Below, in pieces: positions 995 through 24,242 of a stretch of 64,000 nt of DNA. The DNA is taken from assembly GCA_033675265.1 (NCBI GenBank), contig JAUJYZ010000900.1, forward strand, positions 231,879-295,878. The letters are read 5' to 3'. Position numbers and translations under genes: made by a program. The notes under the pieces are model-generated. The model did not search any database, was not told where the DNA came from, and saw only the letters and a list, made by a program, of their open reading frames with translations. Source of the DNA: Actinostola sp. cb2023. Taxonomy: Eukaryota > Cnidaria > Anthozoa > Actiniaria > Actinostolidae. How positions within the stretch are numbered: the stretch's first letter is position 1; each line of letters opens with the position of its first letter.

Positions 995-2260
995 TTAGAC
1001 CCTACTAATATAATACCTGCAAGAACGCTGGAGAGTTTCTCTTAATTTGTACAGAACCAGATCTAATCTCCCAAACCCACTTATGCTAGAAACGTGTGGT
1101 ACAGCAGATTTCTTCTCAAGTTTTACTGCCCCTGTGGGAAATGTTATGGGGAAAGTTACAACCCAGCGGCAATTATTATGCTTGAATTCCATGGACAGAT
1201 CCTGTGTTGATGTGTCTCTTGTAATTTCAACTTTCCTGTTGTCAGAAAGTGTTTTTACGAATCTTAGAGTTTCTCGTAAAGTATCTTTTCTTGCTTCATA
1301 CCACTGTTGCGAACTAGACACTGCAATATACCTATGAGTACTGTCTTCATTGTTTGGATGTTGTGGAGGTCGTGGTGGTGATGCGCCGATACGGGAAGCT
1401 CTAGGGTTTGCCCGAGAAGTACGTTCTGGCTTTGGTTGTTGAGGTGGTTGAGGTGAGTAGGCTGCCTGATGGACGCCAACTTGGTCTGCGTTGAGTGAGC
1501 AATATTCTTTCTCATGAGATCTGTCAGGAAACGAACGCGATTGCGGTCTGCAAGCTGTTTCTTTTTGTGGTGATCGAGAGCGACTACGAGAATGAACCTG
1601 TGGTAGTTGCCTTGCATTTGGTCGACTTCTCGACTCAACCTCTTGTGTTGGTAAGCTGTCTTCTAGTCTTGTTTGTCTCCAGCTAACTAAATCTTGTCGT
1701 ACGAATGCCTCCTTTCCCTCGTTAATACACCTTTTGATGGATGCCACTTGATTAAACGGATTTTTTGTAGCCAAGACTTCAACACGTCCGCGCTCAAAAG
1801 GCGTCATATCATCAACAAACTTGAATGGCGATAGTTTTACATTTCCATCGCGTAGAATGTTGGCAATCATGAGCACAAAACCCTGCGAGCCTCGTGGATA
1901 GTTTCGTCTTATGGTACCACAGTCCCCTCCACTGGGTTCGTGTAACTGCAGCTGGTGATGGGAGTGCCATTCGCCAATATGACACAAAAAATATTGCTTT
2001 GTCAACAACTCGCCTACTCTGCTCATGTACGGAATGTCTTGGTAGAAAGATGTAGCGCTTCGTCTACAGTTCTGACCTGGTCCCGTAGCAACAAGGACAA
2101 CAGCGTTGCTGTAGTTAGTCCACAAACCAAACAAGTTTCCTCCTGTCTCCTCGTTCGGTCTCTCACTGACTAGCTTTCCAATTTCTATATAATCTTCTTC
2201 AAACATACACAATGTGAAATTGGTGTCTGGGTTTCTTGAGCGTCGATATCTTGAATCCAT
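995..2260 (-). CDS. JAB/MPN (JAMM) deubiquitinase-like protein with C-terminal E2/RWD-like domain
   Basis: Predicted zinc isopeptidase of the JAB/MPN family, which cleaves ubiquitin or ubiquitin-like conjugates or trims precursors. I start at the ATG at 2260 (421 aa). The frame is open to 2392, but the two paralogues in the window begin at the equivalent point, so the extra 44 codons are probably 5' UTR. Counting from that ATG, the JAMM residues are Glu38 (in ETGGNLFGLW), His99 and His101 (GEWHSHH), Ser110 and Asp113 (PSGGD). Residues about 200-310 are low-complexity and rich in Arg, Ser, Gln and Pro. The last 100 residues begin at QWYEARK and contain a TFPITFP hairpin resembling the YP hairpin of UBC/RWD folds, without a catalytic Cys. 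There is no intron. It lies downstream of an E2 relic on the same strand, forming a decayed E2-JAB pair. The domain call is firm; the substrate is unknown. Confidence 0.85.
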   Translation of the reverse strand: MDSRYRRSRNPDTNFTLCMFEEDYIEIGKLVSERPNEETGGNLFGLWTNYSNAVVLVATGPGQNCRRSATSFYQDIPYMSRVGELLTKQYFLCHIGEWHSHHQLQLHEPSGGDCGTIRRNYPRGSQGFVLMIANILRDGNVKLSPFKFVDDMTPFERGRVEVLATKNPFNQVASIKRCINEGKEAFVRQDLVSWRQTRLEDSLPTQEVESRSRPNARQLPQVHSRSRSRSPQKETACRPQSRSFPDRSHEKEYCSLNADQVGVHQAAYSPQPPQQPKPERTSRANPRASRIGASPPRPPQHPNNEDSTHRYIAVSSSQQWYEARKDTLRETLRFVKTLSDNRKVEITRDTSTQDLSMEFKHNNCRWVVTFPITFPTGAVKLEKKSAVPHVSSISGFGRLDLVLYKLRETLQRSCRYYISRV

Positions 2261-2711
2261 TATCTCCAACATAAAATTGATCTCAAAGACGAAGCGTAAC
2301 CTTTCTACATGGAGCGTGAACACTGAATTTGTAGGCACGAGCATGCGCAGAAGTGTGTTTTCATTCTCGGAAACAGGAAACCTTTTTTTCACGAATTAGG
2401 GGATTCCCCGTGTAATAAACACCTCTGTAGGTGTTAGTTAAATTACACTTTTATGCTGCATTTCAACCCCTGTGGCGCGACCGCCAAAATGCGGCTGTAT
2501 TCGCAGGCTAGCATTTTCCCTGGAATATTTATTGGATGACATTTTAATTTCGTTTAATAAACAATATATTTAAGATTGCTACGATTGCTACTATAGAAAT
2601 TTTTACAAGCAATTTTATTACATAATAATCATTCGAAAAACAAATCCGATAAAGGTTTATTACATTCACTGTTCGTTAGTAACACTGAAGAGGATTCGTT
2701 TTCACTTCCCC

Positions 2712-2985
2712 GGCTCAAATACGTACTGAAAAAATCCAGTTCTTCGGTGGGCTTCATATGCTTCGAGCAAAATAAGTCCTTTCATAAACACTTGATACAG
2801 CGTGTATTTATTTGTCCGTTCACATGGCTCGGAAAGTGACATATTTTTATGAGGCCATTTTTTGTTCCAAAAGACAGTGTCGTCTTGTGCTGATAGGGAT
2901 CCATTAAGCTTTGATTCGATTTATTATTTCTTTTTAATTTCAGTATCCTCGGTCGGTGACGCCACGGTTAGCTCTGCATGGACAC
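2712..2985 (-). pseudogene. E2-like relic (C-terminal part)
   Basis: The minus strand is clearly homologous at nucleotide level to the C-terminal two thirds of the E2-like gene at 5642-6091. It covers the segments for the IKICHF region, the LYQVFMKGL helix and the EAHRRTG tail. Small indels break the frame and the N-terminal part is missing. It lies upstream of the JAB gene at 995-2260 in the same direction, so the pair mirrors the E2 and JAB relic at 6091-3057. It is a decayed tandem duplicate. Confidence 0.75.
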
Positions 2986-3056
2986 CGTAGTTCAATGTAT
3001 ATAGTTCCACTTTTTACACTTTTGAACGGTATCAAACGGCAAGCAGTCGACACTTT

Positions 3057-4343
3057 TCACAGTTGAATATAGTAAGATGAGCTGAATATTTTCTTAGTAT
3101 TTTTATTTGCCTTCATGGTTGAAGACTTTGTTGCTTGCTTTGTTTGACCACACAAAATTGTGATTCCCCGATCAACAGATGATTCCATATTGTGCTGCTT
3201 TTTGTTGCTATCACTAGGATATTCAAGATCTGTTTTAACGCGGTCAAAATGAGTTATTTGGACTCCGTAATACTGTACTTCTAATGAAGGCTGGTATTTT
3301 GAGTTTTCTTTATCTTTAACTAACGCATTTGATGTACAGTTTTCTGTGGTGGAGCAAAGGTGATTTCTTTTAAGGTTGATGTGAAAGGATACTCTAGAAC
3401 AGTGGCTTGATTTGTTGCTTGTCTCAGCTCTCGTAGACGTCTTTTCAGCAAACCGATGTTCATTGTTGTTATCTTTGCTGGTGTCAACATACTGTGGTGG
3501 TACTTTGCATTGCTTGTAACTGTCTTCTTTGTCATCACTGATTTGAAAGTTTTTGACCCGCGTCGTGGGTAAACTGACCCATATATTGTTGAGAATTCTT
3601 GATGTCCATTGATTGCCTAGGCTCTGTTTTGCTTCGATGATTTGATCTGGCATTTGCTTTCACGTTTTTAATACAGTTTTCTTTTCTTTTCATGTACCTT
3701 CTCGCAGGCTGTTCTCCATCATGTATACCTGTGTATTGGTTTAGTAAATGTCCAGAGTTTGTAGTCTCTGCTCCATCGTCGATTTCATCTTTGATTTTCA
3801 TTCGAAAAGGGCTTAAAGTATCATTAATTAATTTGAATTTGCCTTCCATAACTTGGCTATGCTGACTTAAATTGTTTCTTAATGTCCTCTCAAATAGAAA
3901 GCAACCAATACGAACGTCACCAGGCATACAGTTTCTTGAACCTAACCTGTGAGTAGATCTCTCCCAAATGTTGGCAATGAACAGAAAGAAGCGATGTAGA
4001 CCATATCGATGCATGTTGGACCAAACAGTGTTCTCGTCTCCACCACTTGGTCTCGTCAAACCAAGTGTATGATGCGAGTGCCATTCTCCAATATGACACA
4101 GACCTTCTTTAGTGCATGTTAACTGATTACCAACTCGTTCAAGGTACTCTACGTCTTGGTAGAAAGAAACACTTGTTCTTCTGCAGTTTTTCCTGGTCCA
4201 AGTACGAGTTGTACTACTGCAGTGCGCTCGTCTAACCACAAGCCAAACAAATCTCCCCCTGTCTCGCAGTTTGGAAAATTATCGACCCAGGCTTGTATCT
4301 GCCGATATTCTAAAACGTAAAGCAAAACTGTAAAATAACTCAT
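3057..4343 (-). pseudogene. JAB/MPN (JAMM) gene, frameshifted
   Basis: A JAB paralogue split over three frames. The first frame, from the ATG at 4343, gives the N-terminus through CETGGDLFGLW and VLGPGK. A one-base loss in the A-run near 4190 then moves the reading into a second frame (4239-3535) that carries VSFYQDVEYL and the complete motif GEWHSHHTLGLTRPSGGD. A further shift between 3653 and 3535 leads to a Ser/Lys/Asn-rich C-terminal frame ending at 3057. The metal ligands are all conserved, so decay is recent, or the shifts are sequencing errors in homopolymers. The C-terminal E2/RWD-like domain seen in the paralogues is barely recognisable. It lies downstream of the intact E2 gene at 5642-6091 on the same strand, separated by 1.3 kb of repeats. 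Confidence 0.75.
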
Positions 4344-4784
4344 GATCTATGTTGTCATTCTTCTCTTTCAAGAATATCAATCTCTTCGATATCAAAGAGC
4401 TTCTGCAAATTAAACACATTGAATCAGATGTTTTGTTTGAAAATATAGCTATGTAGCCTCTCAATTCCAAGCTTTAAGCTTGTCCATCCCCCCGAGAATT
4501 TGCCATCTTTGTTGCAGAACGCAAAATGCCCTACTGTGCGGGAAATATCGGAATTACTATATATTAAGTTTATACTCTGAATACTTTTAATGTACTCTAT
4601 CGTTTACTTCCTGTGTCTCAACCAAGTTTTGCGTTTTTCCTGCAGTAAAGTTGAGAACTGTATATTAATCAGCCCGGCGTGGGAATTGGCTACTTGAGAA
4701 ATGCCCGACAAATGACCGGGGAAGTTGGGAAAGCTTCTATACAGCGCCAAAACTTGGTGGTTGACCTTTTTACTTAATTCCGGA

Positions 4785-5215: not shown

Positions 5216-5220
5216 CGCAA

Positions 5221-5252
<32 letters not shown>

Positions 5253-5266
5253 TAAAATGTTATTTC

Positions 5267-5336
<70 letters not shown>

Positions 5337-5641: not shown

Positions 5642-6091
5642 TCACATTTCCCTCAAATACGTACTGATAGATTTGCCAGTTCTTCGGTGTGCTTCATAAG
5701 CTTCGAGCCAAAGAAGACCTTTCATAAACACTTGATACAGTGTGTATTCATCTGTCCACCGCCATTCTTGAAAGTGACATATTTTTATGAGACCATTTTT
5801 TGTTCCAAGAGTATGGTCTTCTGCTGATAGGGATCCATTAAGCTCTGATCCATTCTTTCTTTTCAGTATCCTCGGCGATGCCACGGTTAGTTCTGGACAC
5901 GAATTAGGGTAGTCTGAAGGAAGATATATCCTTAGTGTATAGCAGTGATCGTTACTTGTAGTCATCTTTACATCAACCAACGTATCCCCAGTGGGATTAG
6001 TCCAGTTGACTTTATTCACAAAGTAGGATTCTAGAATTCCTTTTTCCATTCCCAATCTGTTCTGCTGACTTGTAGACCAAGGCATGTTCAA
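5642..6091 (-). CDS. E2-like ubiquitin-conjugating (UBC-fold) protein, copy 1
   Basis: A 149-aa single-exon protein with a UBC-type fold pattern. It has an N-terminal helix (QQNRLGMEKGILESYF), a beta meander, the hairpin LRIYLPSDYPNSCPELTV with the E2-like YP..CP motif (about 53-70), then NGLIKICHFQEW with the candidate catalytic Cys105. A conserved C-terminal helix region follows (LYQVFMKGLLWLEAYEAHRRTG). It lacks the canonical eukaryotic HPN box. The Cys-then-Trp layout and the WLEAYE..RTG tail resemble the prokaryotic E2 families found beside E1 and JAB genes. The second copy at 22521-22970 keeps the same Cys and tail, which shows selection. The ATG at 6085 (third codon) is an alternative start, since the other copy begins at the matching MxW. 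It probably receives a modifier from a cognate E1. Confidence 0.8.
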   Translation of the reverse strand: MNMPWSTSQQNRLGMEKGILESYFVNKVNWTNPTGDTLVDVKMTTSNDHCYTLRIYLPSDYPNSCPELTVASPRILKRKNGSELNGSLSAEDHTLGTKNGLIKICHFQEWRWTDEYTLYQVFMKGLLWLEAYEAHRRTGKSISTYLREM

Positions 6092-6951
6092 TTCAGTATT
6101 CGCTCAGTGAAGGCACCTTTCAATGCAAGTTAATGAGGACGCATGCGTACAATGTTTAGTGACCATTTGTGCTCTCGCACTGTCATTCATATTCAGTTTT
6201 ACACTTTCACACAACACCTGGACAACAACAAAGTATCTAGTTATTAAATTATCAAGAGTAAACCTTGATAAAAGGAATGATACCAAATTACGTAATTCGA
6301 GATGATAATAAAGAGTCAGTATTGCGTGACTTACTCAGAAAAGAGTAACGTTTGAACAATAAAGATAAGACTAGAAGTTGCATAATGCAAAGGAAGTGCT
6401 GCTGAGCCACACCAACAACACATTAGATACGAAACATGATTAGTCATTAGTGTGTCCTGACAGTCAAGATTGAGAACTGTAGACAAAGCTATAGCCTTGT
6501 AAAATCTGTCACCTTCGGTTAAGATCTCATCGATCGTTTCAGAAGTCCACCGAGCGATCGATAGGCAAATTCTGAGCAAATAAAAGAACACTGGCGTCCT
6601 CTCGAAATGTCACTGAAGCGTTTGTCACCTTGATGAATAGTTTTTTAACATCAGATGATAAATATTCGAATAATCACACTGTCGAAATAGCCACGAAATT
6701 CTGCAGACCACAGGTAGCCCGATGTGTGACACGTGACAGAAATCCGGATACCAAAAGATCGAAAATCTAGCTGGCATCCAGACCACAGGTAGCCCAACGT
6801 TTAACACGTGACATAAATCCGAATACCAAAAGATCGAGTGCTGTCAAGACTATTTCGCTGCTCGCTACGCTCGCAGCAATAATATCGCATTGGTGCTTAG
6901 AAGTCAACAGAGACTATAACTACAGCTGTATATATATATGTATAATTCGCG
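6092..6951. other. Intergenic with a 75-bp direct repeat
   Basis: No gene is seen. Positions 6704-6838 hold two tandem copies of a 75-bp unit starting CAGACCACAGGTAGCCC. The region separates the minus-strand E2 gene from the plus-strand small gene, so it may hold two divergent promoters. I could not identify a convincing core element. Confidence 0.6.
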
Positions 6952-7260
6952 ATGGAAAACAACAATAATCAGTCCTATTCTGAAAGGATGTTCAGAGCTT
7001 GTTATGTAAAGAGAAAAGAAGAGATTGTAGAAGGCAGCTCTTCTGATGGTAAAGGAAATATATCTTCAGTGGCAATGATAACGTACGAATCTCGAGGCAC
7101 GACGGCTAATCAAGAAGAAATTGTCTTCGACATTCAAAGTGGAAAATTAGTTGTCTCCAACTCATCTAAGTCGACGCAAGACAAGTACACTACAGGCAAA
7201 TCAGAGGATACCAAGAACCCAGTTATGACCCAAATGGCTGCTGATGGATTTTATTATTAA
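6952..7260 (+). CDS. Small protein with C-terminal MAxDGF motif, candidate modifier or partner
   Basis: A 102-aa single-exon protein. The N-terminal third is Asn/Ser/Lys-rich and probably disordered. The C-terminal half reads VFDIQSGKL, a Ser/Lys-rich linker, then VMTQMAADGFYY at the very end. The 69-aa protein at 24033-24242 shows the same layout (VFDPKTLKL, Lys-rich linker, LVFTGMAVDGFFRIE). The two sit near opposite edges of the E1/E2/JAB cluster, which suggests a shared role as substrate, modifier or adaptor. There is no di-glycine tail, and I do not recognise a ubiquitin fold with confidence. Function is unknown; conservation of the tail between divergent copies is the main evidence that it is a real gene. 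Confidence 0.55.
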   Translation: MENNNNQSYSERMFRACYVKRKEEIVEGSSSDGKGNISSVAMITYESRGTTANQEEIVFDIQSGKLVVSNSSKSTQDKYTTGKSEDTKNPVMTQMAADGFYY

Positions 7261-8425: not shown

Positions 8426-8665
8426 AGCGATGCTAGACTTAGAGCTTTCGCGAGGGATGTTCGATGTTAAATGTCCCTCGTGGAACAATGAAAACCGAGG
8501 TGATCATGGTATTATCTACAACTATATACTGGTAATAGTTACGTCACCTTCAAAGTGCTATTTCATCATTATCGATCCTTGTGTTACGTTTCTACTGCAC
8601 TGTAGCGCGCACATATCTAAGAAGCTAGCTTGTCATCTATGTCATCATTTGCCGTACCAAACAGC

Positions 8666-8930
8666 ATGGATGCTACACTTGAGGAAGGGAACGACTTTAT
8701 TCTTTACATTTTTAAGAAAGAACTTGAAATGGTAAACGGTATGGGAAGCCGCATAGAACTGCTGATAGCGGATTGTTTGGCTTATGGACCAGCACTGGAA
8801 GCCCCGTCACATTCAAGGAATATTCATTTCTACAAAGCAGACATTTCAAGGGACATGAACGAACAATGGACCGGCTAGCTACATGTAAGTCAGTGGTATC
8901 TGACTGAGGGTGAGCGTGCAAAACTGCCAA
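8666..8930 (+). pseudogene. JAB-like N-terminal relic
   Basis: It starts MDATLEEGNDFILYIFKKEL, matching the start of the degenerate JAB protein at 15172 (MDAGQGNDFLLYMFKDDI). After about 25 codons the homology moves to another frame, where LFGLWTSTGSPVT and KEYSFLQS correspond to the LFGLW and EYHFLQS segments of that protein. It then stops before the JAMM region. It is a truncated, frameshifted duplicate of the pseudo-JAB rather than of the active JABs. Confidence 0.7.
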
Positions 8931-9762: not shown

Positions 9763-9843
9763 TCACATTTCCCTCAAATACGTACTGATAGATTTGCCAG
9801 TTCTTCGGTGGGCTTCATACGCTTCGAGCCAAAGAAGACCTTT
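9763..9843 (-). pseudogene. E2-like relic, 3' (C-terminal) piece
   Basis: On the minus strand it encodes the last 26 codons of the E2 (WLEAYEAHRRTGKS region to the stop), nearly identical to the gene at 5642. The homology stops abruptly at 9843, where TGGTGGCCGAG repeat DNA begins. The matching 5' piece is at 14777-14943, so one E2 copy was split by the intervening insertion. Confidence 0.8.
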
Positions 9844-10506
9844 ATGGTGGCCGAGGACTGCCACCATAACTTTTATTTATTTTTGCATAAAAAATAAAAG
9901 TTTATATTGAACTAAAACGAAAATGGCATTGAAAATCTAAACAAATTGAATGTAAATTAAAATGGCATTGCAAATAAAATTAAAATTGGAAAGCAAAATA
10001 AAATTAAAATTCAATGCAAATTAAAGTGAATTAAAAAATCAAATCAAAAGTAAATTCCAAATATAAGTGAAATCAAAAATGTAATTTCAATTTAAATTCA
10101 GAGTGAAAGTAAAAATGAATTTCCCGATGGCCGAGCGCTGCCACTACCATAATATCAAATCAAAAGTAAATTCCAAATATAAGTGAAATCAAAAATTTAA
10201 TTCAGAGTGAAAGTAAAAATGAATTTCCCGATGGCCGAGCGCTGCCACTGCCATAATGCATTGCGCGATTGAGTGGTTCCATCATGCTTTGCGCATGTGG
10301 TCAAAGCATACAATAATGTGTATACTATACTATAGGAGTCTAGAACGACTACAATTAGTAGAAGGCAGTCAATCATCTTTTCAAAAATCCTTTTATACAT
10401 GTTGAACAAGTTCTAATGTCGGACCACGGAGAAGCTTTGTGGAAGGATGATGGTGACCTTAAAGATGCTATCTCGAAATATGTTCGACAAGGCTTACAAA
10501 GAGGTG

Positions 10507-11928
10507 TGTGGTGGCCGAGAACTGCCATTGAATTTTTTCTAGATTTTTCGTTTATTTTAAATTTTATTTCTTTTTTTACTTCTTTTTTATTTCATTTTAT
10601 TTTATTTTTTCAATTTGGTTTACTCTTACTTTGAAAAGTAAATTGAAATTAATAACAAATTGAAACTCAAATGAATTTTAAATTTATTTTAAAATCAAAA
10701 CGTAAAATAAAAGTAAAGTAAAATGAAAACAAAATCTTGCATGGCCGAGCGCTGCCACTAAAATTAAATCAGAATGAAAAACAAAATCTTGCATGGCCGA
10801 GCGCTGCCACTACAGTCATGCATTGCGGTCGATCAGTTCTCCGAAATGCTGACAAACTGACACTCACTAAACAGTAAACATGACCGATTGGCGTGCTTTT
10901 GTGAACAAGCAAAAGCAGAAACGAAAAGGTAGAAAGGAAGCGAATCTTCGGAAGCGACGAAGGATGACATAGAGGTGCAGAGGATGAGCTTTGAGGTTAG
11001 CGAAAAGCAGCAAAAATACAGTCCAGTTGGTGCACCGGAATACGTGCCATTCGAACATGACGACGAACTTTAAAATACATTCGACAACGTATTAAATAGA
11101 TACCTGCCAGAAACACTTTGCTATCCAAATTGGGAAAGGCATGGTATGTGATATTCTCGCCGGGGAGCGTGGTCCATCCGCCTGTAAGAAACTGATGATG
11201 AATATTCCAGATATGAAAGTGTTCCGCCGGGCTACGTATGGTTCATTGAGAGGGAAGACAATGACACAAGCTTCACCGTGGCGGACCATCTCGACCAGGA
11301 TGGGCCACGCTCCCCGGCGAGAATATCACCATGCCTTTCTCAATTTGGATAGCAAAGTGCTTCTGGCAGGCATCTAGTTCGTCGTGTTCGAATGGCACGT
11401 ATTCCGGTGCACCAACTGGATTGTATTTTTGCTGCTTTTCGCTAACCTCAAAGCTCATCCTCTGCACCTCTATGTCATCCTTCGTCGCTTCCGAAGATTC
11501 GCTTCCTTTCTACCTTTTCGTTTCTGCTTTTGCTTGTTCACAAAAGCACGCCAATCGGTCATGTTTACTGTTTAGTGAGTTTGTCAGCATTTCGGAGAAC
11601 TGATCGACCGCAATGCATGACTGTAGTGGCAGCGCTCGGCCATGCAAGATTTTGTTTTTCATTCTGATTTAATTTTAGTGGCAGCGCTCGGCCATGCAAG
11701 ATTTTATTTTCATTTTACTTTACTTTTATTTTACATTTTGATTTTAAAATAAATTTAAAATTCATTTGAGTTTCAATTTGTTATTAATTTCAATTTACTT
11801 TTCAAAGTAAGAGTAAACCAAATTGAAAAAATAAAATAAAATGAAATAAAAAAGAAGTAAAAAAAGAAATAAAATTAAAAACAAACGAAAAATCTAGAAA
11901 AAATTCAGTGGCAGTTCTCGGCCACCAT
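10507..11928. mobile_element. 1.42 kb near-perfect palindromic foldback element
   Basis: It begins TGTGGTGGCCGAGAACTGCCA and ends TGGCAGTTCTCGGCCACCAT. Both arms of about 590 bp are inverted copies that continue almost to the centre near 11216 (for example CTCGCCGGGGAGCGTGG at 11157 against CCACGCTCCCCGGCGAG at 11307). AGAGGTG flanks it on both sides as a probable 7-bp target duplication. Removing the element and one copy restores the reading frame of integrase gene A. The arms carry a short basic frame that may be a captured gene piece. Confidence 0.8.
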
Positions 11929-13616
11929 AGAGGTGAAATGTTGGATTTCTTGATTCGTGACTTCCCAGAATATGCGTGGAGTATGAGAACACTCGACAGA
12001 CGACTCCGGCATTTTGAAATATATTTTAATGACGCAGGCATAAGCGTTGATGATGTGAAGAAGGCAGTAGAAACTGAACTGAAAGGTCCAGGTAAACTGT
12101 TGGGGTATCGAGCAATGCACAAGAAGATCAGACAAGAACATGGCCTTAACGTGACACGAGATCAAGTCTACGATGTCATGAGCGAGCTTGATCCCGAAGG
12201 TCTCGAAGCAAGAAGTGGTATTGGTGGTAAGAAAAAGCGTAAAAAGGGCAATTTTACTACAAAAGGGCCCAACTGGGTTCACTCACTTGATGGTCATGAC
12301 AAGTTAATGGGCTATCAAAATTCAACCTTCCCATTGGCCATCTATGGTTGCCTTGACACAGCTAGCAGAAAACTTCTGTGGCTGAGAGTATGGGTCAGTA
12401 ATAGTGACCCAAAATTGATTGGACGATGGTATTTAGAACATCTGTATGAGACAAGAATGATCTCAGCCATTCTGCGAGTGGACAAAGGGACAGAGACAGG
12501 GGTGATGGGAACCATGCATTCATTCCTTAGGAGACACCATGGAGATATGAATCCACATGATACAGTTCTCTATGGTCCTTCAACATCAAATCAGGTAAGA
12601 TATTATCTTAAAGTAAAGCCTTGCAAACGCTTCCAACTTCACTGTCCTCAATGTGTTGGATGCAAAAGACAGCATTTTCTTTCACATGTGCCGTGGTCAT
12701 CAAAATACTCATTTAAAAAAACTGGGTCTGTTTGTGAACGTACATGTAGCCACTGCAATGAACAGTAGTTGTTATATATTGTTGGAAGCATTTGCACTAA
12801 CGTTACTTATATAGTAGAGGTGTGCTTAATCTCATAATACAATAAGGCAATATATTGCATACATGTATACATATGAATGGAATATTAATTTTGTTGGTTT
12901 TTAAAGGTACATGTATATCTATGTACATGTGTGATGAGACCAATCACAAGCTACCGTACATACATACATTGTGTAAGAGTTCAAAATTACCCAAGCTGAA
13001 TCCTAAATGAATAATATTGATTGATGTAATTAATGTACACTGGATTTACTATTCTTTTCCAAATGCGACAACATGTCAAGTCAGCATCTATTTTGTTCTT
13101 CATCCACTGCAAATTCATGACGTGTCATGCTTTTCTTTCTTCACCACCCTGCTAGCTACTGCTCTTGTCACATGGCAAAAATTCCCTTGTCAACAGCCTT
13201 TTTACTTTGCACATGAGTTTGCATTTGCAACTAGGAGACCAGATAAATAACTGTTCATTGACTCGCTGCTCAAGGTCATTGAACTGTCAAGTCTAAACAT
13301 GAGCAGCATCTTATTCTAATATATACATATATCATGATTACTCTTGAAGATTGAAAGATGGTGGAGAGAGCTCCATGAAAGAATGGAGAAGTACTTCAAA
13401 ACTCAGTTGGGTTGGCTGAAAGACCAGGGTAACTTTGATCCTCACAATGATACTGACAGGTAAGAACATTCAATGTGCCAAATTTGAAGCATCATTTCTT
13501 ATATGATATCGAGGCTCATTTATAAGAACACGAGAAATGGATGATAGCTAGAGTATGATAGATAATTTGATGGCAATGCAGCCAGAAGAAAATGTTTGTT
13601 GCATGTGGAAGCCATA

Positions 13617-13774: not shown

Positions 13775-14776
13775 AAAATATCCATAAATTTCACTTGATT
13801 CAATATGATAGTATTTATTTATATTTTTGATGCAGAATGCTTTTGGCTTTCATCATGGTACCACTTATACAGAAGGAGCTGGATGTTTTCAGAGAAACAG
13901 TATGGAACACACACAGGATCCGAGCACAAAAAGACACTGTCCTTCCTGATGGTATACCAGACCATATCTATAACTTCCCAGAACAGTACGGCCTTGAAGA
14001 ATGTGGTATGTGGCAAAATCCTTTTGAGTACCTTTGAAATTTGGGTCATAAAATTGCACATTGAATTGTAAAATTTAGCCTGAGAATGCAAACATCCTTT
14101 TATCACTCCCCTTGATACCCATTCCATACATGTACATGAGTTATTAACTCTCTATGACGTATGATATGTTTATTCAGATACTAAAATCCTCACCCACGAG
14201 TATTAATAAGTGAGGAACAAGCAATAGTATAACATCAACCAGGGATCTTTGGGATAATGTAGGGATTTTATTGCAAGCAAGAAAAATGGCATCCCAACAT
14301 TGTCAGTGGAATATGCCAATCTAAACTTTCTGGCTTAATTTCCAAACAGTTTATCAAGGCCCTTATACTATTCATCAAGGAGTATTTCAAATATTGTTAA
14401 GGCTATTAGTTAGGTTTTGTGGGTTCATGATCTCCATTAAGTAAATACAATGTTTTCTTCTTTACATTGTATGATGATTTATAACTGATAAATTAATTGT
14501 CCTCTGACACCACTACTTATTACTTGGATAGGTTTTCCTGTTACTGAGGACCAACTTAAGGAGGCAGCAACTGAATCTGGCGTTTTACATGTCCCAGATG
14601 ACTTTCTCACTCAAGAATTCAGAGCAGAATGCGAGCGTCTCATTCCAGATAATGCCTCCATTAAGCCATATGAATGGACACATGCATATAAGTATTTAAA
14701 GGATAACTTCACACTTTCAGTATAATATGTATACCGTACAATCCTGGTTATAACTTCGTAAGGGTTTTGTGGTGGG

Positions 14777-14943
14777 TTAGTGTATAGCAGCGATCGTTAC
14801 TTGTAGTTATCTTTACATCGACCAACGTATCCCCAGTGGGATCAGTCCAGTTGACTTTATTCACAAAGTAGGATTCTAGAATTCCTTTTTCCGTGCCTAA
14901 CCTTTTCTGCTGGTTTGCATTTCCTATCCTTATCGATGTTGAT
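14777..14943 (-). pseudogene. E2-like relic, 5' (N-terminal) piece
   Basis: The minus strand encodes the E2 segment from about LGTEKGILESYFVNKVNW to the SNDRCYTL strand, very close to residues 13-53 of the E2 at 5642-6091. It then breaks at the insertion border. With 9763-9843 it forms one E2 copy that was split and lost its centre, including the catalytic Cys region. Confidence 0.8.
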
Positions 14944-15171
14944 AGTGTTTGGTGTAAAGACGCTACGATATTTGCTAATGTCTGATGATATATTGCGTTA
15001 CTGACATTCATGTCTACGTGCCAGTTACTGATGTCACATACGATAGCGTGACATGTACAATTTCCGAGAACTCTGTTGCAATGATCGTGATGATGAAACA
15101 AAATCAATCAACCGATTTACTCTGTCGATGCATGTAGTGAAACTGTATTGTGGATGACTGTTTCATTAAGT

Positions 15172-16173
15172 ATGGACGCAGGACAGGGAAACGATTTCCT
15201 TCTCTACATGTTTAAAGATGACATCGAAATGCTGAAAGGTTGGTGTTCTGGACCAACAAATCAGCCAGGTGAAGGTGCTCTGTTTGGCTTGTGGACAAAC
15301 AGTCGAAATCCTGTGGTACACCTGGTGCATCATGGCGATGTACTACCCAATGAGTACCATTTCCTTCAAAGCTGGTCTGATCATAGAAATGGCAAAAGCA
15401 ATTTTATGTTATGTAAACTTGGTTATTGGTCGTTCAAAACACACTTTAACGACGCAATGCCTGCAACAGTTACTTCAAATGACGGACATAATTGCGTTTA
15501 CCTACATATTCAGCCAAGCACAGACTTTGTCCCATTTATGTTGACAAGAGAACGAAAGCTTCATGGAAGGATTGAGACTTTACAGGGACATAATCCTTTC
15601 AGAATTCCCCAAGATGAGCAGGTTGTAAAGACTAATTCACAAATACCAGTAGCTAAGTTGATTGATGTGTGTGAAACCGCGGAAACTACCTCGATGGAAA
15701 AGAACATCGGAAACTACAACAATCCGTCAGCGGAATTCGACTCTAGAGCTCAAGGAGATAGGTCAACACTACCTAAACAGTTTTCAAATGTTTCCATACA
15801 GAATCCTGTGGATTTCCAGTGTGAAGCAGAGGTATCCACATCACTGTGCGCCGTAGCACAACAGTGGTACTTGAACGATGACGGTCAAACCCTTAGGAGA
15901 TTGTGTGACAATCTTAGTAACTTCGCAAGGGTTGAAAAGATGCTAAGAGATAATGAGACACATAACATTACAATATATTTAATCTTCGAAGGAAAACAAT
16001 TCTCTGTTTCTTTCCCTGAAAATTTCCCTGAAAGTAATGCCGATTTATTTCAGCATAGATTATCTACACAAAGTGCTACGCCGTATCGTGTCAATCTGAA
16101 GTCCACAGATCCCATAGAGCTATCCAGTGAAATACTTAACCATTGTAGGACTTGTAGTTGGTATGGCCACTAG
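15172..16173 (+). CDS. JAB-like pseudoenzyme (JAMM ligands lost) with C-terminal E2/RWD-like domain
   Basis: A 333-aa intact single-exon frame. I start at MDAGQGNDF (15172) because the relic at 8666 starts the same way; in-frame ATGs lie upstream at 15148 and 15154. It aligns with the active JABs through LLYMFKDD, GALFGLWTNS and EYHFLQSW. The ETGG glutamate is replaced (PGEGALFGLW) and GEWHSHH reads GYWSFKT, so the zinc ligands are gone. The C-terminal domain is well kept: QQWYLNDDGQ, then FSVSFPENFPES. An undisrupted frame of this length with precise loss of catalysis suggests a binding or regulatory pseudoenzyme rather than decay. An AATAAA lies at 16569-16574. It is followed in the same direction by the active JAB at 16959. 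Confidence 0.75.
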   Translation: MDAGQGNDFLLYMFKDDIEMLKGWCSGPTNQPGEGALFGLWTNSRNPVVHLVHHGDVLPNEYHFLQSWSDHRNGKSNFMLCKLGYWSFKTHFNDAMPATVTSNDGHNCVYLHIQPSTDFVPFMLTRERKLHGRIETLQGHNPFRIPQDEQVVKTNSQIPVAKLIDVCETAETTSMEKNIGNYNNPSAEFDSRAQGDRSTLPKQFSNVSIQNPVDFQCEAEVSTSLCAVAQQWYLNDDGQTLRRLCDNLSNFARVEKMLRDNETHNITIYLIFEGKQFSVSFPENFPESNADLFQHRLSTQSATPYRVNLKSTDPIELSSEILNHCRTCSWYGH

Positions 16174-16958: not shown

Positions 16959-17936
16959 ATGTCAAGTTCCATAAATACGTTCGTTGTCTATATGTTTAGG
17001 CATGATTTTGAGAATATGAAGAAATGGGTTTTGCAATATCCTGACCGGGAAACAGGAGGCGATTTGTTTGGTTTGTGGTCCAACCAAGATAACGCAGTCA
17101 TTCATATTGTACTTGGTCCTGGCCGTCAGTGCACACACGGTGAATACCATTTCTATCAAGATGTACCTTACTTGAAGGAAGTTGGTGATCTCTTGACCAG
17201 GGATTATATGCTTGGACACATCGGTGAATGGCATTCACACCATCAACTGAAGCTAGATGAACCGAGCGAAGGTGACTGCAGGACTGTGCACAGGAATTTT
17301 CCGAGAGGTTCTTGTGGCTTCTTTCTGATGATAGCTAACATAATCGCCCAAGAAAATGTTCAGATCTCACCATATATTTTTAAAGAGGGTTCTCACTACT
17401 ACCAAGCAGGACAAATCGAGATCATTGCAGAAACAAGTCCATTCAGACTTGTACCTGAGATATCATCGATAATAGAAGATGGAGTAGAAGTAAAGAAAGT
17501 CGACGAATCTAGTTTACTGGATACTGGTTTAAAATATGTTGAGGGTGCAAAATCTACAATAATGTCAAAGTATAACCAGTTTGAAAGATTTATAAGTGAG
17601 CTAGTTTCTTCAAGTTCTCAAAACAGCCTTCAGTGGTACACCAAACCAGAGGGTCAGCTTATCCTCCAAGCAATTATAAACAATTTGTGCAATATTATAT
17701 ATAACTTTCACATTGAAAAGGAAGATTGTGGAATGCATGACATGATAATGAAATTATCTTGTAATGGGCATGACGTTAGACTATGTTTTCCCTGGCAATT
17801 CCCATGTAAGGAAGCGAAAATATACATTGACAATGGACCTTCAAAATACATTTTTACTCAGAACCCGTTTAATGTAAACCAGTTTGTTTCTAAAATAAAG
17901 AAGTTAGTGATGCCATATATCAAGCAAACAGTCTGA
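16959..17936 (+). CDS. JAB/MPN (JAMM) deubiquitinase-like protein, intact
   Basis: A 325-aa single-exon protein and the cleanest JAB in the window. The N-terminal JAB domain spans about 1-160, with candidate zinc and catalytic residues Glu31 (ETGGDLFGLW), His92 and His94 (GEWHSHH), Ser103 and Asp106 (EPSEGD). There are eight residues between the second His and the Ser, one more than the textbook JAMM spacing, and the same is true of all the paralogues here. Residues about 160-210 form a linker. The C-terminal 100 residues (from LQWYTKPEGQ, with VRLCFPWQFP) form an E2/RWD-like domain lacking a catalytic Cys. A poly(A) signal lies at 18098-18103. It sits directly upstream of the E1 gene in the same direction, as in bacterial E1/E2/JAB operons. 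It is predicted to remove or process the module's modifier. Confidence 0.87.
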   Translation: MSSSINTFVVYMFRHDFENMKKWVLQYPDRETGGDLFGLWSNQDNAVIHIVLGPGRQCTHGEYHFYQDVPYLKEVGDLLTRDYMLGHIGEWHSHHQLKLDEPSEGDCRTVHRNFPRGSCGFFLMIANIIAQENVQISPYIFKEGSHYYQAGQIEIIAETSPFRLVPEISSIIEDGVEVKKVDESSLLDTGLKYVEGAKSTIMSKYNQFERFISELVSSSSQNSLQWYTKPEGQLILQAIINNLCNIIYNFHIEKEDCGMHDMIMKLSCNGHDVRLCFPWQFPCKEAKIYIDNGPSKYIFTQNPFNVNQFVSKIKKLVMPYIKQTV

Positions 17937-18672: not shown

Positions 18673-20603
18673 ATGCACCAACCAGATGACCTTGTCTTGT
18701 GTTTAATACAATCTAATGTCATCGATATTTTGAGAAAGAATAAGGACCATAACTTTACGGTCACACCAGTCGATGATGGGGACGTCCTTCACATCACAGT
18801 ATCCTCTGCAGCTCAAGAAGAAGTCAGTGAAAACCAAGTGGCTTTGACCATGCTCGCTCGAAGGTTTCCCAGATGGCGACAAAGAAATTAATGAAATCAT
18901 CGAGGATACCTTCAGAAAACTGCAGGAGAGCGCCACTACACAGATTGCTTTGCTGATAACCACAGATAATCAAGTCAAAGCATACACAAGGAAGACGTCC
19001 ACTGATCCACCAAAGCAAACCAAAGTACTATTGAATCCTTCAAAAGACTTGCTCTACTCAAGAAGTCAAGGTTTACTTGAGTCTGGTTTGTTAGAGGAGC
19101 AAAAAGTCGCCATTGTCGGACTGGGCAGCGGTGGTTCTCATGTGGCTATTGAGTTGGCAAAGGCCGGTGTTGGAAACTTTGTTCTTGTGGACTACGATCG
19201 CATCGAACTGAACAACATTATCCGCCATACATGTGGGGTGAGTGACCTGGGTAGACTCAAGACTAAAGCCATTCGCGATCGCATCTTGGACAAGAATCCT
19301 TTTGCTGATGTGAAGCTTCACAATAGTGACATTAATGATCAGGAGAATGCTAGAAATATTCTAGCGGGCTGTGATCTTATTGTCGCTGCCACAGATAACA
19401 TACGAAGCCGATTGAACATCAACACTGTTTCACTTGAGCTTGACATCCCAGTTTTGTATGGCAAATGTGCTGTAAGAGCTGCAGGAGGAGAGGTTGTGAT
19501 GATCAGACCACACAAACTCAAGGTACTTAAGGCCTGGTTCAAAAAGGCAACTTGGAAAATCACATTTCTTGTAATAACTCGCTGCTCTAATTTACTTAGG
19601 CACTCATATTTAGGCATAAGGTTATATACAAGATTTGAGACAATTTAGATCTAACAATTGTGACGTCATGTGGTCACGTGACCTTATGGAGGAAAATATA
19701 GTTTTTCTTAAATGCGGTCGCGAATTCAATTCACAATGAAATACCTTTTACGTAATAGCGTTAAGGATAACCAGTTAAACAAGATAGCGTTTAGAAAACC
19801 TCGGAATTATATATAGTTTAAGAGAAAACTACAGAAATATAATCTGATGAAATGGTCACGTGACCTCTTTTCCGAAATATTCTCCTTGCAAAAAGCGGGA
19901 GACAGGTTTTCTAAACGAGGGTTAATAGATGATCATAAACGTGATTATACACAACTATTTGCTTTCACTTTCCTCTTAAACTGGCGACCGCATTTTATAT
20001 TTTGTTTTCAAAATTCTTTGTCACGTGGTTAACCACGTGATACGCTATTTTGGATTTCATTCACTTAAATGAGTAGAGGATATAAAACTCTCAAGCTGTG
20101 CCAAGTTTTGTGATGTTTAGTCAAAATGATTAGACATTATAATTTTTTTCGTTTTTCTGCTATTTAAGGCTTGAACCAGGCCTTAAGTACCTTGAGAAGG
20201 GCCGTGCTTCAGCTGTGTCTACAAAAATGCTCTTATAGAAGCAGACAAGGAAGAAGTCTCCTCGTTCCGCCAAGCAAGAGAGGCAAACCCAAGCTACGTC
20301 CCTGACAATGAGGTTGAGGCCACTATTCAAGTTGGCTTGTCATCAGACATCATCCCCATCAGCAACATGATTGTAAAGATTGCTCTTGTTGAGCTATGCA
20401 AAGGAAAAGACAGCGCCTTGTCTTCGCTGGAGAATGATTTCAGAAGTGCATACTACATGTGGTCAAATCGCAGGGAAGGTCAGTATGCTTCATATCCCGA
20501 TGATGGTTTTGACAAGTTCAACATGCCGAGTATTCTGCGATGGTACTCAATGGAAGTGAAAAAAGACGACACATGTAAAACTTGTAATATTGAAATGGAC
20601 TAG
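18673..20603 (+). pseudogene. E1-like ThiF/MoeB-type adenylating enzyme, interrupted
   Basis: E1 activating enzyme that would adenylate the modifier's C-terminus. The N-terminal segment (MHQPDDLVLC..., frame 1) shifts by one base near 18850 into the ThiF frame, which runs EGFPDGDKEI, then the Rossmann loop VAIVGLGSGGSH, VDYDRIELNNIIRH (arginine and acidic residues), LKTKA and AATDNIRSRLN (MoeB-type Asp). It continues to GGEVVMIRPHK, where a MITE is inserted. Beyond it the frame resumes at GPCFSCVY, the PCxxC zinc motif of ThiF/MoeB proteins, and ends with a second CxxC (DTCKTCN) and stop at 20603. Joining HK directly to GPC keeps the frame if a 2-bp AA duplication is discounted. Splicing at the apparent GT-AG of the insertion would give the wrong frame. 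A poly(A) signal lies at 20774. It is recently inactivated unless both lesions are assembly or polymorphic events. Confidence 0.82.
19517..20196. mobile_element. MITE inserted in the E1 gene
   Basis: The ends CTCAAGGTACTTAAGGCCTG... and ...CAGGCCTTAAGTACCTTGAG are inverted copies over 26 bp. The interior is partly self-complementary (AAATGCGGTCGC against GCGACCGCATTT; GTTTAGAAAACCTCG against GGTTTTCTAAACGAGG). AA flanks both sides as a possible 2-bp duplication. Subterminal TTAA at 19527 and 20183 is an alternative boundary, as for piggyBac-type MITEs, but that choice leaves the PCxxC motif out of frame. It is non-coding. Confidence 0.8.
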
Positions 20604-20919
20604 CTTAGTTGTAATGACTGCATGCAGTAATGAACCATCGGTCGTTAATACAGAGTGACGTACACAGTTCATTTTTTAGAATATATCATTTGAAAATTAT
20701 ATACTTAGTTTTAGTATAATGTTAGACTTGAATATTCACCGATAATCACATCGTCTTCGGCGTATAATTGTTAAATAAATGGCATTTCCCATAATACAAT
20801 GCCCTCATAATTATATCTTTATGCAGTTATTTAAGGCTTCGTCAGCCCAATCATAATTGTATGCTATATAACCACAATTACTCAGTAATAATACAAATGG
20901 AATTACAACACAATACAGA

Positions 20920-21320: not shown

Positions 21321-22434
21321 TCTATGTATAGCAAGAAAATAAAATGTATGTTATTATTGATATAACAATATGTTTTGGTGTTAAAGCATTCTCTTTATTT
21401 TCTATGGATATTTATATTTTAAAATAAGTTACCAGTAGCAATCCATGCAAAGCACTATTCCAAGAACTTGCAAATTGCGGCACCATGCTCAAAGCAGTTA
21501 TTGAATTTAATACCAGTTAATTTACAGACTTCGGTTTCATAAACAACAAACATTTTTGGGATTTAATGGTAGTCAGTCTTTCGTGGGTGGGATGAATAGA
21601 TCTTTGTACAGAATGTTAGACATGCGCCGCAATCCTAATAGTTAAGTTTATACAAGGGGCATTTCCCCAAAGGCGCAAAGTCCTTTCCATTCTGTGCGTA
21701 TCAGAATCGTAATGCATGAATTTGTTAATATTTACTGCCATGGTATAGGGCTTCCCATACGCTGCAAAATTTGTAGACTGATTCCGTTTTTTTATCAAGA
21801 ACTTTCAATGACTTATGCAAAATTGTTTACACAATGCTCAGTGTGGGCGTCTAGTATTCATTTCGATCCACGTTGTAAACTAGTTCTATTGTAATCCTAC
21901 GTTAAATAAAGTATGTATGTGTGTATGTCATGCTTCCCAGAATCCCAGAAGTGTAGCTTCTGTCTGTAAGGGACTTTCCCTGTCTTTGTCAAATTCTCAG
22001 AAACCACACACTGGAACTATTTACATATCATGCAAAACTTTCCATGCAAGCCGAACTTCTTGAAAGTAAGTTGCATCTGTAATAAATGAATAACATGAAA
22101 GAAAATTTATATATTCATCTGTTAAACAGTGTGTGAAATTACATAGCTGAATAATGTGGTGATATAATAAAACCGTAAAATAAGGCTACCATATATTCAG
22201 TATTTTTTTAAGAATTGCTGAAGCTAATTACAATTAAAATTATCATCCTGTTATAGTGCACTATTCGTTATGACATGTCTTTGTTCAATACCATTGTGCA
22301 TATTAATTGATTTTCCTTGATCGACATCCTATTATCAACCATTATGACTTGTCTTGTAATTGCAGCCAGGATGCATTATATGACATTAAAATTGGTTGTC
22401 TCTGGCTTATATATTTGTTATTAAAGCTACAAAC

Positions 22435-22463
22435 GTTTCGATCCTTCCTCGGATCTTCTGCAG
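22435..22463 (-). ncRNA. Degenerate hammerhead ribozyme-like core (Penelope-type relic)
   Basis: The minus strand reads CTGCAGA, then stem GATCC-GAGGAA-GGATC, then GAAAC. This matches the hammerhead core CUGANGA/stem II/GAAA carried by Penelope-like retroelements, except that CUGANGA is mutated (C for A at the fourth position), so it should be inactive. It is consistent with Penelope-type coding remnants elsewhere in the window. Stems I and III were not verified. Confidence 0.5.
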
Positions 22464-22520
22464 TGTCTTATTACTTGTATTTATTTGTTTTTCCGGCGCC
22501 AGTAAAACGATCATAGTTTT

Positions 22521-22970
22521 TCATATGGGCATTTCCCTCAACAATTTATTAATTTCCTTCCCTGTTGCAAGGTGAATTTCGTAGGCCTCCAGCCACAAAC
22601 GACCTTTCAAAAACACTTGATACAACGTGTTGTCGCCCGTCCAGTAGCCTGGTACGAAATGACAGATCTTTGTAAGATTGTTTATTGTGGTGCCATAGCT
22701 ATGATCACTGTAACCAAGATTGTTACCGTTTCGCCTTTTCAGTGGATGACTAGGACTGCTTACCACCAAGACTGGACAGGAATTTGGGAAATCCTTTGCA
22801 AGATAAATTTGCAGTGTGTATTGTCTATCATTATTGGTGTTCATGGCCACTGCAACTTTGGCTTCAGCAGGAGTTTGATGACTAATCCATGTCACTTTAC
22901 CAGGGAAATTTGCGTCTAGAATACGCTTCTCAATGCCAAGTCTGCGTTGCTGAACAATAGTCCAAGACAT
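22521..22970 (-). CDS. E2-like ubiquitin-conjugating (UBC-fold) protein, copy 2
   Basis: A 149-aa single-exon paralogue of the E2 at 5642-6091, the same length and roughly half identical. It starts MSWTIVQQRRLGIEKRIL, followed by LQIYLAKDFPNSCPVLVV, then LTKICHFVPGYW with candidate catalytic Cys103, then LYQVFLKGRLWLEAYEIHLATG. Conservation of the Cys, the FP/YP hairpin and the WLEAYE helix against marked divergence elsewhere indicates purifying selection on both copies. It lies 1.9 kb downstream of the E1 gene and converges with it. A Penelope-type relic adjoins its 3' end. It is the best candidate partner for the E1 in this module. Confidence 0.82.
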   Translation of the reverse strand: MSWTIVQQRRLGIEKRILDANFPGKVTWISHQTPAEAKVAVAMNTNNDRQYTLQIYLAKDFPNSCPVLVVSSPSHPLKRRNGNNLGYSDHSYGTTINNLTKICHFVPGYWTGDNTLYQVFLKGRLWLEAYEIHLATGKEINKLLREMPI

Positions 22971-23267
22971 TTGGATACCAATAACGTACGTTGGCAGGTT
23001 GTGTCGTTTTGGGCGGTATTTCTTAATAACACAGCTGGATGTCTAGTGCTATTTCTCGGAAATTCATGCATGAGCAGAAACGCCGTTTTCTCGGTAATTT
23101 AACCCAAGATGATGTTACAAGTACCTCCCCCCCCCCCCCCCCCGGGCGTCTCTACCGCCGAATTAATATCACTTTTGATGTGGAAGCCATTAGGATATGA
23201 GATATTTAAGAAAGATGATATGAGCTTCTGATATTGGAATACATCGCTGTAAGGTTTTATCGCTATA

Positions 23268-23700
23268 TTAGTGTACCACTAAACACGCATTTCCTGGAAG
23301 CGATGCTTGACCTCCATGGGAAACGAAGAGTGTTACGTATTCATTAAATTCGTGGAAACTGCGGATGTTAAGTCCAAAATTATTTAATGAAGTTCTTGGA
23401 AGTGAAATATGTTTGTACGCAAATTTAAGGGGATTTCCCTGAACACTTGAGCCAGTAAGGAAGTAATTAAGGAGCATCTAGCCGTACGTAAACAAAAACT
23501 CGTGTGTTTTCAGAGATAAATATAATATAATTACTCGGGTTACCTGTGGTAAGCCGTGGTACCCTATTTGTGTCGTCGTCATCGTTCTACACAAAATGAC
23601 AAAATTGCGCGATATAGTTTCCCGAGATTGCTTCACGTCTCTTCAGGATCGCCTCTTTTACACTTTCTAGGCGACTTTATTGAATTGAATATATCAGTGT
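23268..23700. repeat. Dispersed repeat family, copy 3
   Basis: Shares TTCCTGGAAGCGATGCTTGA, the CTGAACACTTGAGCC block and the segment ATTACTCGGGTTACCTGTGG with copies near 48 and 52 kb. A C-homopolymer lies just upstream at about 23126-23143. The rest of 22971-24032 shows no gene. Confidence 0.75.
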
Positions 23701-24032
23701 TCATCGTATTTTAGATGGTTCGGAATGTAATAAGTGACATGTACAGATATTGTCCGCTGTACCGCCTAATATGACTTTTGATGTGAAACCCGTCAGGATA
23801 TATGCCACTATATCTGTTACCTATGAGGAATTGTTGTTTGTGCAGAGTCTGGATGTTATAGACATATAATTGTTCTACCTTGGTTGTATTCAACTACTAA
23901 TTCGTTTGCTCAATTGCTATCATTCAAATGATAGTCACTTAATCACAGTCTCATATATTATTTAATGTTTTGCTTCGGCTTCGGCCTTTAGTGAAGTGCG
24001 TTGTTTCCCTTGAACACCACAACAGCAGAAAA

Positions 24033-24242
24033 TCATTCAATGCGAAAAAATCCATCTACAGCCATACCCGTAAACACCAAAGTATCTCCTGCACGTTCAG
24101 CTTCTGTTTTCTTTTTCTTCTTTAGCTTCAAAGTCTTTGGATCAAATACCAGAACCTCTGAACTAGACTCTTCTGTATTATTTCTAGCATTTTTTTGTAG
24201 AAATTCTTCAACTGCGGCTGCACTTTCGTCTGGAGAACTCAT
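24033..24242 (-). CDS. Small protein with C-terminal MAxDGF motif, second copy
   Basis: A 69-aa single-exon protein. It has an acidic/Ser-rich N-terminus, then VLVFDPKTLKL, a run of Lys, and the tail LVFTGMAVDGFFRIE. It matches the 102-aa protein at 6952-7260 in the VFD...KL segment and in the MAxDGF[FY] tail, but little else. The short size, charged linker and conserved hydrophobic end suggest a peptide-like modifier, adaptor or degron. There is no Gly-Gly terminus. It lies between the second E2 and the left end of the giant transposon. Function is unknown. Confidence 0.55.
   Translation of the reverse strand: MSSPDESAAAVEEFLQKNARNNTEESSSEVLVFDPKTLKLKKKKKTEAERAGDTLVFTGMAVDGFFRIE

Follow-up and report, generated by a model that had tools for sequence, protein, structure and literature searches.

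Why should an animal chromosome hold a group of genes that resemble a bacterial protein conjugation system? The question is raised by the left end of a 64,000-nucleotide stretch (hereafter the window) from the sea anemone Actinostola sp. cb2023 (contig JAUJYZ010000900.1, positions 231,879 to 295,878), where genes of E1, E2 and JAB type, together with their relics, cluster loosely on both strands of positions 1-24,242. To our knowledge, ubiquitin-like conjugation in animals rests on β-grasp tags from the eukaryote ancestor. A preliminary description of the window had proposed a bacterial-type module. What it overlooked, judging by sequence, is that the closest relative is one specific four-gene bacterial operon and that the two small MAxDGF proteins of the window correspond to its fourth gene. 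The anemone genes are homologs of this operon; we think it likely that animals acquired them from bacteria, and we predict that their products attach the small protein to targets as a ubiquitin-like tag.

The relationship was assessed with profiles built from the bacterial loci alone and run against the 2,555 open reading frames (ORFs) of the window. These recovered its JAB, E2 and E1 genes as well as both small proteins, the latter being the only window ORFs to fall under an expectation value (E) of 1 with the bacterial small-protein profile (Table 1). The bacterial type and clustering that had been proposed are thus borne out: bacterial profiles find the window genes, and animal rows stand beside bacterial rows in the trees described below.

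The bacterial operon

Bacterial and archaeal genomes were scanned once with the E1 alignment, yielding at least 57 loci (a lower bound, obtained with two peptide patterns): 31 from Bacteroidota, 10 from Cyanobacteriota, 5 from Caldisericota, 3 each from Cryosericota and Actinomycetota, and 5 single or unassigned others. In 50 of the 57, the JAB, E2 and E1 genes and one for a small protein (about 65 residues) are all adjacent, always on one strand, in a count that accepts small proteins down to profile E 0.1. Their order is JAB-E2-small protein-E1 in 47 loci and small protein-E1-JAB-E2 in three, these last from Actinomycetota. Six of the seven loci short of four genes end at a contig edge, and in the seventh, L026, the small protein is degenerate. 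Carriage of the operon as phage cargo was considered and rejected (no phage match at 1e-20, no confirmed viral_contigs locus), as was plasmid cargo, the search at 1e-40 giving two Bradyrhizobium ThiF matches with 37% identity over 68% of the query.

Conserved sites and the candidate modifier

The metal site of the JAB proteins is kept, with HSH, Ser and Asp in 16 of 16 aligned rows and Glu in 15; the remaining row is the frameshifted JAB of the window, whose Glu is present in its other half. The spacing from HxH to Ser is one residue longer than in the usual JAMM motif. Five bacterial examples (L001, L003, L005, L007 and L011) have the JAB domain near the N-terminus and an extra E2-like domain at the C-terminus. 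Among 15 aligned E2 rows H92, C104, D59 and P61 are invariant and P57 nearly so, and a P-x-x-Y/F-P motif accompanies the active-site Cys and its upstream His. The E2s had been described as lacking HPN, which is correct, but an invariant His is kept 12 residues ahead of the invariant Cys. Family libraries match the two intact window copies as PADLOC E2 (22521 copy, E 1.2e-5) and RWD (5642 copy, E 6.7e-6).

The E1 contains a single ThiF stretch per protein (PF00899, E 2e-33 to 9e-37) and a CxxC...CxxC zinc site whose four Cys are present in 80 of 80 rows. UBA5, ThiF, MoeB and Uba4 are matched by the E1 profile solely across the ThiF core. When an AlphaFold2 model of a natural small protein-E1 fusion (L007) was compared with known structures using Foldseek, conjugation E1s came top, with Cap2 the best; BubCD structures were also matched, and MccB appeared within the first 50. 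The structural alignments cover almost only residues 192-494 of the model, so this comparison barely reaches the folds of the small protein and the E1 N-terminal domain. A relationship of that N-terminal domain to JAB or E2 was tried and rejected (hhalign 0.5% or less).

The unfused small protein is, as a rule, 50-72 residues long, with a central LVFDPxTGxL and, near its end, GF[FA] followed by 0-6 variable residues; the G[FY][FA] end and the hairpin are its best-conserved parts. In the 62 small-protein rows of the alignment used for the structure model, G, F/Y and F/A/Y are each found 61 times; of the 53 loci where a small protein was recognised, 13 (L043, L045 and L054 among them) were left out of this alignment. 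Library searches gave nothing useful in NCBIfam and PADLOC (two copies) or among PDB sequences, and two one-off weak matches in Pfam (28 copies, E 0.01), neither of them ubiquitin. In the L007 model (111 rows; mean predicted local distance difference test, pLDDT, 86.7; predicted template modelling score 0.80) the small-protein block, at pLDDT 68-86, comprises a helix (3-19), a hairpin (26-31/36-41) and a short helix (55-59). With one bacterial copy modelled, the small protein is thus predicted to lack a β-grasp fold.

We propose that the small protein is a tag and the other three products its handling enzymes. The JAB would trim the variable tail behind the GF[FA] end, the E1 would adenylate the new C-terminus, and the E2 would transfer the small protein to target proteins through its conserved Cys and upstream His; the JAB could also remove the tag, while its E2-like tail probably holds the tag or one of the two enzymes E1 and E2. 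Tagged proteins may then, in some bacteria, be acted on by a Clp unfoldase. JAB-type proteases usually cut such precursors after G; here, a cut after G and a cut after F-[FA] are both possible, since F-[FA] is kept as well as G.

Several observations weigh against this assignment. The crossover loop of UBA5/ThiF/MoeB-type E1s carries a catalytic Cys. Here the loop that follows PCxxC, between the zinc pairs, has no column with Cys in 30% or more of the 80 rows, leaving a thioester step at the E1 unproven. The sole near-constant Cys outside the zinc site lies in RHxCG (74 of 80 rows). Library matches of the bacterial E2s are weak (L001, PADLOC E2 at 0.031 and Pfam UQ_con at 0.22; L011, none), and neither the E2 nor the JAB profile finds a match among PDB sequences at E 0.05. 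Of the 53 loci where a small protein was recognised, 50 retain the terminal G; L043, L045 and L054 have Pro in its place, with the following aromatic residues retained, and the degenerate small protein of L026 has lost it, so that the mature C-terminus is not necessarily Gly. The 69-residue anemone small protein is only 16-34% identical to 27 other aligned copies. Finally, the E1 copy of the window is broken twice, by a frameshift near 18,861 and by the element inserted at 19517-20196, so that a working set would need another E1 copy.

The missing loop cysteine invites a different interpretation, namely that the small protein is a peptide matured by its E1 as in microcin C, through MccB-like adenylation, while the E2 and JAB would serve in tailoring or immunity. 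The E1 profile indeed matches MccB (2e-17) and PaaA (5e-14), and the substrate is short and modelled without a β-grasp. Yet an E2 with His and Cys and a JAMM-containing JAB accompany the E1 in 50 of the 57 operons, the top structural matches are conjugation E1s, even if MccB is not far behind, and retention by animals in many JAB copies would be odd for such a pathway. We regard this interpretation as improbable.

Slightly better placed, though still unlikely, is the idea that the small protein is an E1 regulator or docking peptide and that ubiquitin or a different ubiquitin-like protein (Ubl), encoded elsewhere, serves as the actual modifier. In-frame fusion of the small protein to the E1 in 8 of the 57 loci would suit such a part. 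(The same fusion is seen in 25 of the 120 E1 homologs listed, with a 26th partial.) The imperfect conservation of the terminal G points the same way. So does the hairpin motif ([FY][DN]PxTGxF or near), which also starts ORFs behind the E1 in seven loci (Table 1), perhaps as a shared docking element. Against it stand the G[FY][FA] end before a variable tail, which is the best-kept part beside the hairpin, and the two tandem copies in L053 (a second, degenerate copy occurs in L033); nor was another small conserved gene seen among the four in the loci inspected. A ubiquitin-like tag remains our preferred reading of the small protein.

Animal relatives and the origin of the window genes

Animal relatives were sought with JAB, E2 and E1 queries, the small protein being known in animals from this window. 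Of 1,519 JAB candidates, 756 reached E 0.01 or better, and among the 120 listed the five that bear an organism name are all anthozoan; likewise, all seven that bear one among the 53 E2 relatives listed are anthozoan. For the E1, 7,995 candidates were scored, giving 1,148 matches, 120 of them listed. The anthozoan genera among the matches listed are Actinia, Exaiptasia, Orbicella, Stylophora, Montipora, Oculina, Desmophyllum and Dendronephthya. Listed E1 matches reach beyond the hexacorals to the last of these, an octocoral, to the sponge Oscarella (P0226) and to EukProt transcript P0275, which we take from the style of its name to be choanoflagellate. By the homologs recognised, corals carry at least three of the four operon genes; with relatives of all four in the anemone, it seems likely that animals borrowed a second ubiquitin-like system from bacteria.

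Every listed E1 match bearing a bacterial name (8 of 8) is cyanobacterial, with 44-57% identity over 70-92% of the query. Could the window genes then be diverged versions of ordinary eukaryotic UBA5, UBC and CSN5-type genes, as their ThiF core and RWD matches might suggest? We judge this very improbable and reject it on the E1 alignment and the bacterial profiles: the cyanobacterial proteins align along almost the entire E1, N-terminal domain included, the E2 and JAB are recovered by bacterial-operon profiles, and that operon also encodes homologs of the small protein. The trees were quick ones, built with no outgroup and from rows other than UBA5/MOCS3, UBC and CSN5, so that the phylogenetic comparison suggested in the preliminary description was made on its bacterial side, where E1 and E2 stand beside bacterial rows.

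In the E1 tree all animal-named rows and the EukProt row form one 20-row clade (Shimodaira-Hasegawa-like approximate likelihood ratio test support 100) beside bacterial rows; within it octocorals are separated from a group of anemones and stony corals, matching the relations of the species. The 20 window and anthozoan rows of the E2 tree form a single clade (98) that adjoins Actinomycetota, with Cyanobacteriota close by (88), and the JAB tree places the 51 bacterial rows on one side of a branch (97). Long-branch warnings apply to the E1 and JAB trees, and the E1 animal clade joins a long row, P0289. The three trees are compatible with one bacterial transfer of the whole set before the anthozoan radiation, possibly before sponges split off. 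As the trees lack an outgroup, the direction of transfer is argued from the operon's broader distribution across bacterial phyla.

The bacterial resemblance of the proteins might also be put down to contamination, or to a misassembly that placed symbiont DNA in an animal contig. We consider the chance of this negligible and reject it on the match of the window E1 to an Actinostola protein, P0174, predicted from a 186,770-bp contig; moreover, relatives are named in eight anthozoan genera, bacterial E2s are 45% identical at most (43-45%), and mobile-element debris lies among the cluster genes. P0174 is 97% identical to the window E1 over 95% of the latter and continues across both break sites, although it is a predicted protein, whose gene model may treat the insert as an intron. 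Its start is almost identical to the N-terminal part of the window pseudoenzyme at 15148-16173, so the P0174 gene model joins the same neighbours. Two Actinostola E1 proteins are among the matches listed (P0174 and P0178).

The preliminary inventory of the cluster largely stands. Two JAMM-intact JABs with their metal-site residues, a JAB pseudoenzyme lacking HxH, two intact E2-like genes, two small proteins and several relics were indeed found, the profile search adding the edge fragment, the E2 relics and, weakly, one further JAB relic (Table 1). The E1 is of ThiF type with PCxxC and CxxC as described, but is not one intact exon, and neither is the JAB at 3538-4346; the other genes are judged single-exon from their uninterrupted ORFs. 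Comparable gene sets appear to lie close together in other anemones, to go by contig records and LOC numbers: P0004 and P0006 (JAB), P0166 (E2) and P0176 (E1) are each given on a 21,515-bp contig, and Actinia P0007 (JAB) and P0122 (E2) have consecutive LOC numbers and an equally sized contig.

Table 1. Genes, relics and inserted element of the cluster in the window, and two sets of genes that follow E1 in bacterial loci (positions given after the locus number)
Feature	Position	Strand	Match or remark
JAB fragment at window edge	23..160	-	bacterial JAB profile E 0.0027
JAMM-intact JAB with C-terminal E2-like (RWD-like) tail	995..2392	-	bacterial JAB profile E 5e-52; tail stretch 1124-1336
E2 relic, two frames	2735..2937	-	anthozoan E2 profile E 4e-13, 1e-4
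Frameshift-split JAB	3538..4346	-	two ORFs, anthozoan JAB profile E 7.5e-46, 3.6e-21
Intact E2-like gene, 147 residues from ATG, active-site His and Cys kept	5642..6085	-	bacterial E2 profile E 3e-46 (5645-6067)
Candidate modifier copy 2, 102 residues, end MAADGFYY	6952..7260	+	bacterial small-protein profile E 1.7e-5 (6946-7257)
Weak JAB relic, below significance	8663..8808	+	E 0.18 to 0.22, two frames
E2 C-terminal relic	9766..9846	-	anthozoan E2 profile E 4.6e-13
E2 N-terminal relic	14775..14918	-	anthozoan E2 profile E 9e-20
JAB pseudoenzyme without HxH (by eye)	15148..16173	+	JAB profile E 5e-9
JAMM-intact JAB, 325 residues, C-terminal E2-like tail	16959..17936	+	bacterial JAB profile E 6e-58
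ThiF-type E1, N-terminal domain and PCxxC/CxxC, broken	18673..20601	+	bacterial E1 profile E 3e-72 (18911-19528), 1e-53 (20196-20588)
Element inserted in E1, 680 bp, perfect 26-bp terminal inverted repeats	19517..20196	+	
Intact E2-like gene, 149 residues, divergent copy	22521..22970	-	bacterial E2 profile E 1e-39 (22530-22952)
Candidate modifier copy 1, 69 residues, end MAVDGFFRIE	24033..24242	-	bacterial small-protein profile E 4e-7 (24036-24254)
Start of hairpin-motif ORF	L025:9251, L032:9242, L040:7738 and 8260, L042:5019, L044:7462, L047:8914, L024:9268		
Clp-type AAA+ gene after E1	L032 (9506-12088), L033 (9201-11765), L035-L041, L043, L045, L046, L049-L052, L054, L055		

Other features of the window may be noted briefly. 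An integrase-like ORF lies amid the cluster at 11908-12768 (rva_4, E 0.0014, below the cut-off) and a second, recognised by eye, at 35851-36630. Matching stretches, both inverted and direct, link 25-28 kb with 40-44 kb, where the ORFs 25793-26161 and 40829-41215 share sequence. An exon resembling a RING plus a TRAF-type zinc finger is seen by eye at 38131-38964, and positions 52434-64000 hold an 11.5-kb satellite with a 21-bp unit in about 576 copies that extends past the window end.

Neighbouring genes, known systems and possible role

A Clp-type AAA+ gene follows the E1 in 18 of the 57 bacterial loci, at -21 to +295 bp (two checked with Pfam), and another AAA+ gene does so in four further loci. 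This direct adjacency suggests that tagged proteins are passed to the unfoldase. An NB-ARC ATPase gene is found near the operon in 7 of the 10 cyanobacterial loci (L001-L006 and L010, in pieces in the last), mostly upstream on the opposite strand, while AAA ATPase genes with 39% mutual identity lie directly behind the operon at L011:8641-10068 and L020:9212-10609. Of 237 neighbour ORFs, 90 were scanned with PADLOC, and 67 families matched; the first 25 of these include DolB or PDC-M37B (14), TRIP13 (6), IetA (3), PtuA (2) and AbiEi (1), with no CD-NTase among those 25; the two Septu PtuA matches are most likely the L011 and L020 ATPases. The neighbours hint at protein unfolding and at defence, the defence context being only suggestive because AAA+ models overlap.

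How does the set compare with conjugation systems already known? In the open-licence literature, to which the search extended, we recognised no description of the operon or of its animal copies; an earlier account of the bacterial operon may exist in the subscription literature. The link to Bil and CBASS drawn in the preliminary description holds as a likeness in kind, not as membership: the anemone and bacterial set resembles bacterial ISG15-like (BIL) systems, Cap2/Cap3 of the cyclic-oligonucleotide-based antiphage signalling system (CBASS) and the bacterial ubiquitination-like (Bub) pathway in its apparent working, Bub having been compared by fold only, and is not filed under any of them. 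CBASS Cap2/Cap3 and 6A-MBL share the E1, E2 and JAB parts, and Cap2 is the best Foldseek match; NCBIfam 6A-MBL cap2_3 matches fall far below cut-off, and the 50 four-gene loci, unlike Cap2, encode E1 and E2 in separate ORFs and also have a dedicated small protein. Pup, which the PafA ligase and not E1/E2 attaches, is likewise a small tag, about 64 residues long and largely non-globular; the present candidate is of similar size but is accompanied by an E1 and E2 in place of PafA. BubCD joins JAB and E1, in one chain by its entry titles, whereas here the two are separate and the JAB has an E2-like tail; the likeness to BubCD is one of folds, not of compared sequences.

Bub is called a putative immune pathway (PMC13373217). 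BilABCD is described as a set of modifier, E2, JAB and E1 in which the JAB processes the precursor; BilA has two ubiquitin-like domains, and BilD combines two adenylation domains, one inactive and one active, with a Cys domain (PMC11354881). The operon studied here likewise brings modifier, E2, JAB and E1 together in the 50 complete bacterial loci, the anemone cluster being looser. From BIL so described, the small protein differs in lacking β-grasp domains in its single model, and the E1 in having no conserved Cys corresponding to the Cys domain (80 rows). One ThiF stretch is seen in the E1, after an N-terminal domain that the fold comparison barely covered.

Iyer, Burroughs and Aravind (2006) described type 6d operons, with separate Ub-like, JAB, E1 and E2 genes in cyanobacteria and Bacteroides and an E2 whose Cys is accompanied by a histidine in an unusual place (PMC1779556). 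Separate genes, the cyanobacterial and Bacteroidota range and the placement of the E2 His are all shared. The same paper gives type 6d a predicted β-grasp small protein, an N-terminal α+β domain on the JAB and an α-helical protein (PMC1779556), none of which is seen here; our five bacterial JABs carry instead a C-terminal E2-like domain. An EAD1-linked set, in TERNS3 systems, has an E1 with Ubl and E2 in bacterial conflict systems, with Ubl and E2 fused to EAD1 (PMC8195603). No EAD1 domain was seen in the present set, in which no profile search was aimed at it.

A role in defence may be proposed for the bacterial and anthozoan sets alike. Anthozoan JABs have apparently multiplied, and in the coral proteins P0008, P0023, P0043, P0068 and P0080 a domain without HxH sits, by eye, beside a live one. 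A dead domain beside a live one is a pattern common in immune genes, and the combination suggests a part in conflict. We put forward more tentatively, and with somewhat less than even confidence, that a second conjugation system of bacterial descent works in innate immunity in the coral and anemone lineage and, probably, in sponges and choanoflagellates too, its tag being a short helix-hairpin peptide with a GF[FA] end, without a β-grasp, that fast-multiplying JABs trim and remove.

If cnidarians do keep the bacterial set, they have a second, separately acquired route of conjugation, with a differently shaped tag and an E1 without the usual loop cysteine. The bacterial operon, standing beside a Clp-type unfoldase gene in 18 of the 57 loci, would make a pathway from tag to unfolding directly testable, and a large and mostly unannotated family of JAB proteins would gain a candidate function.

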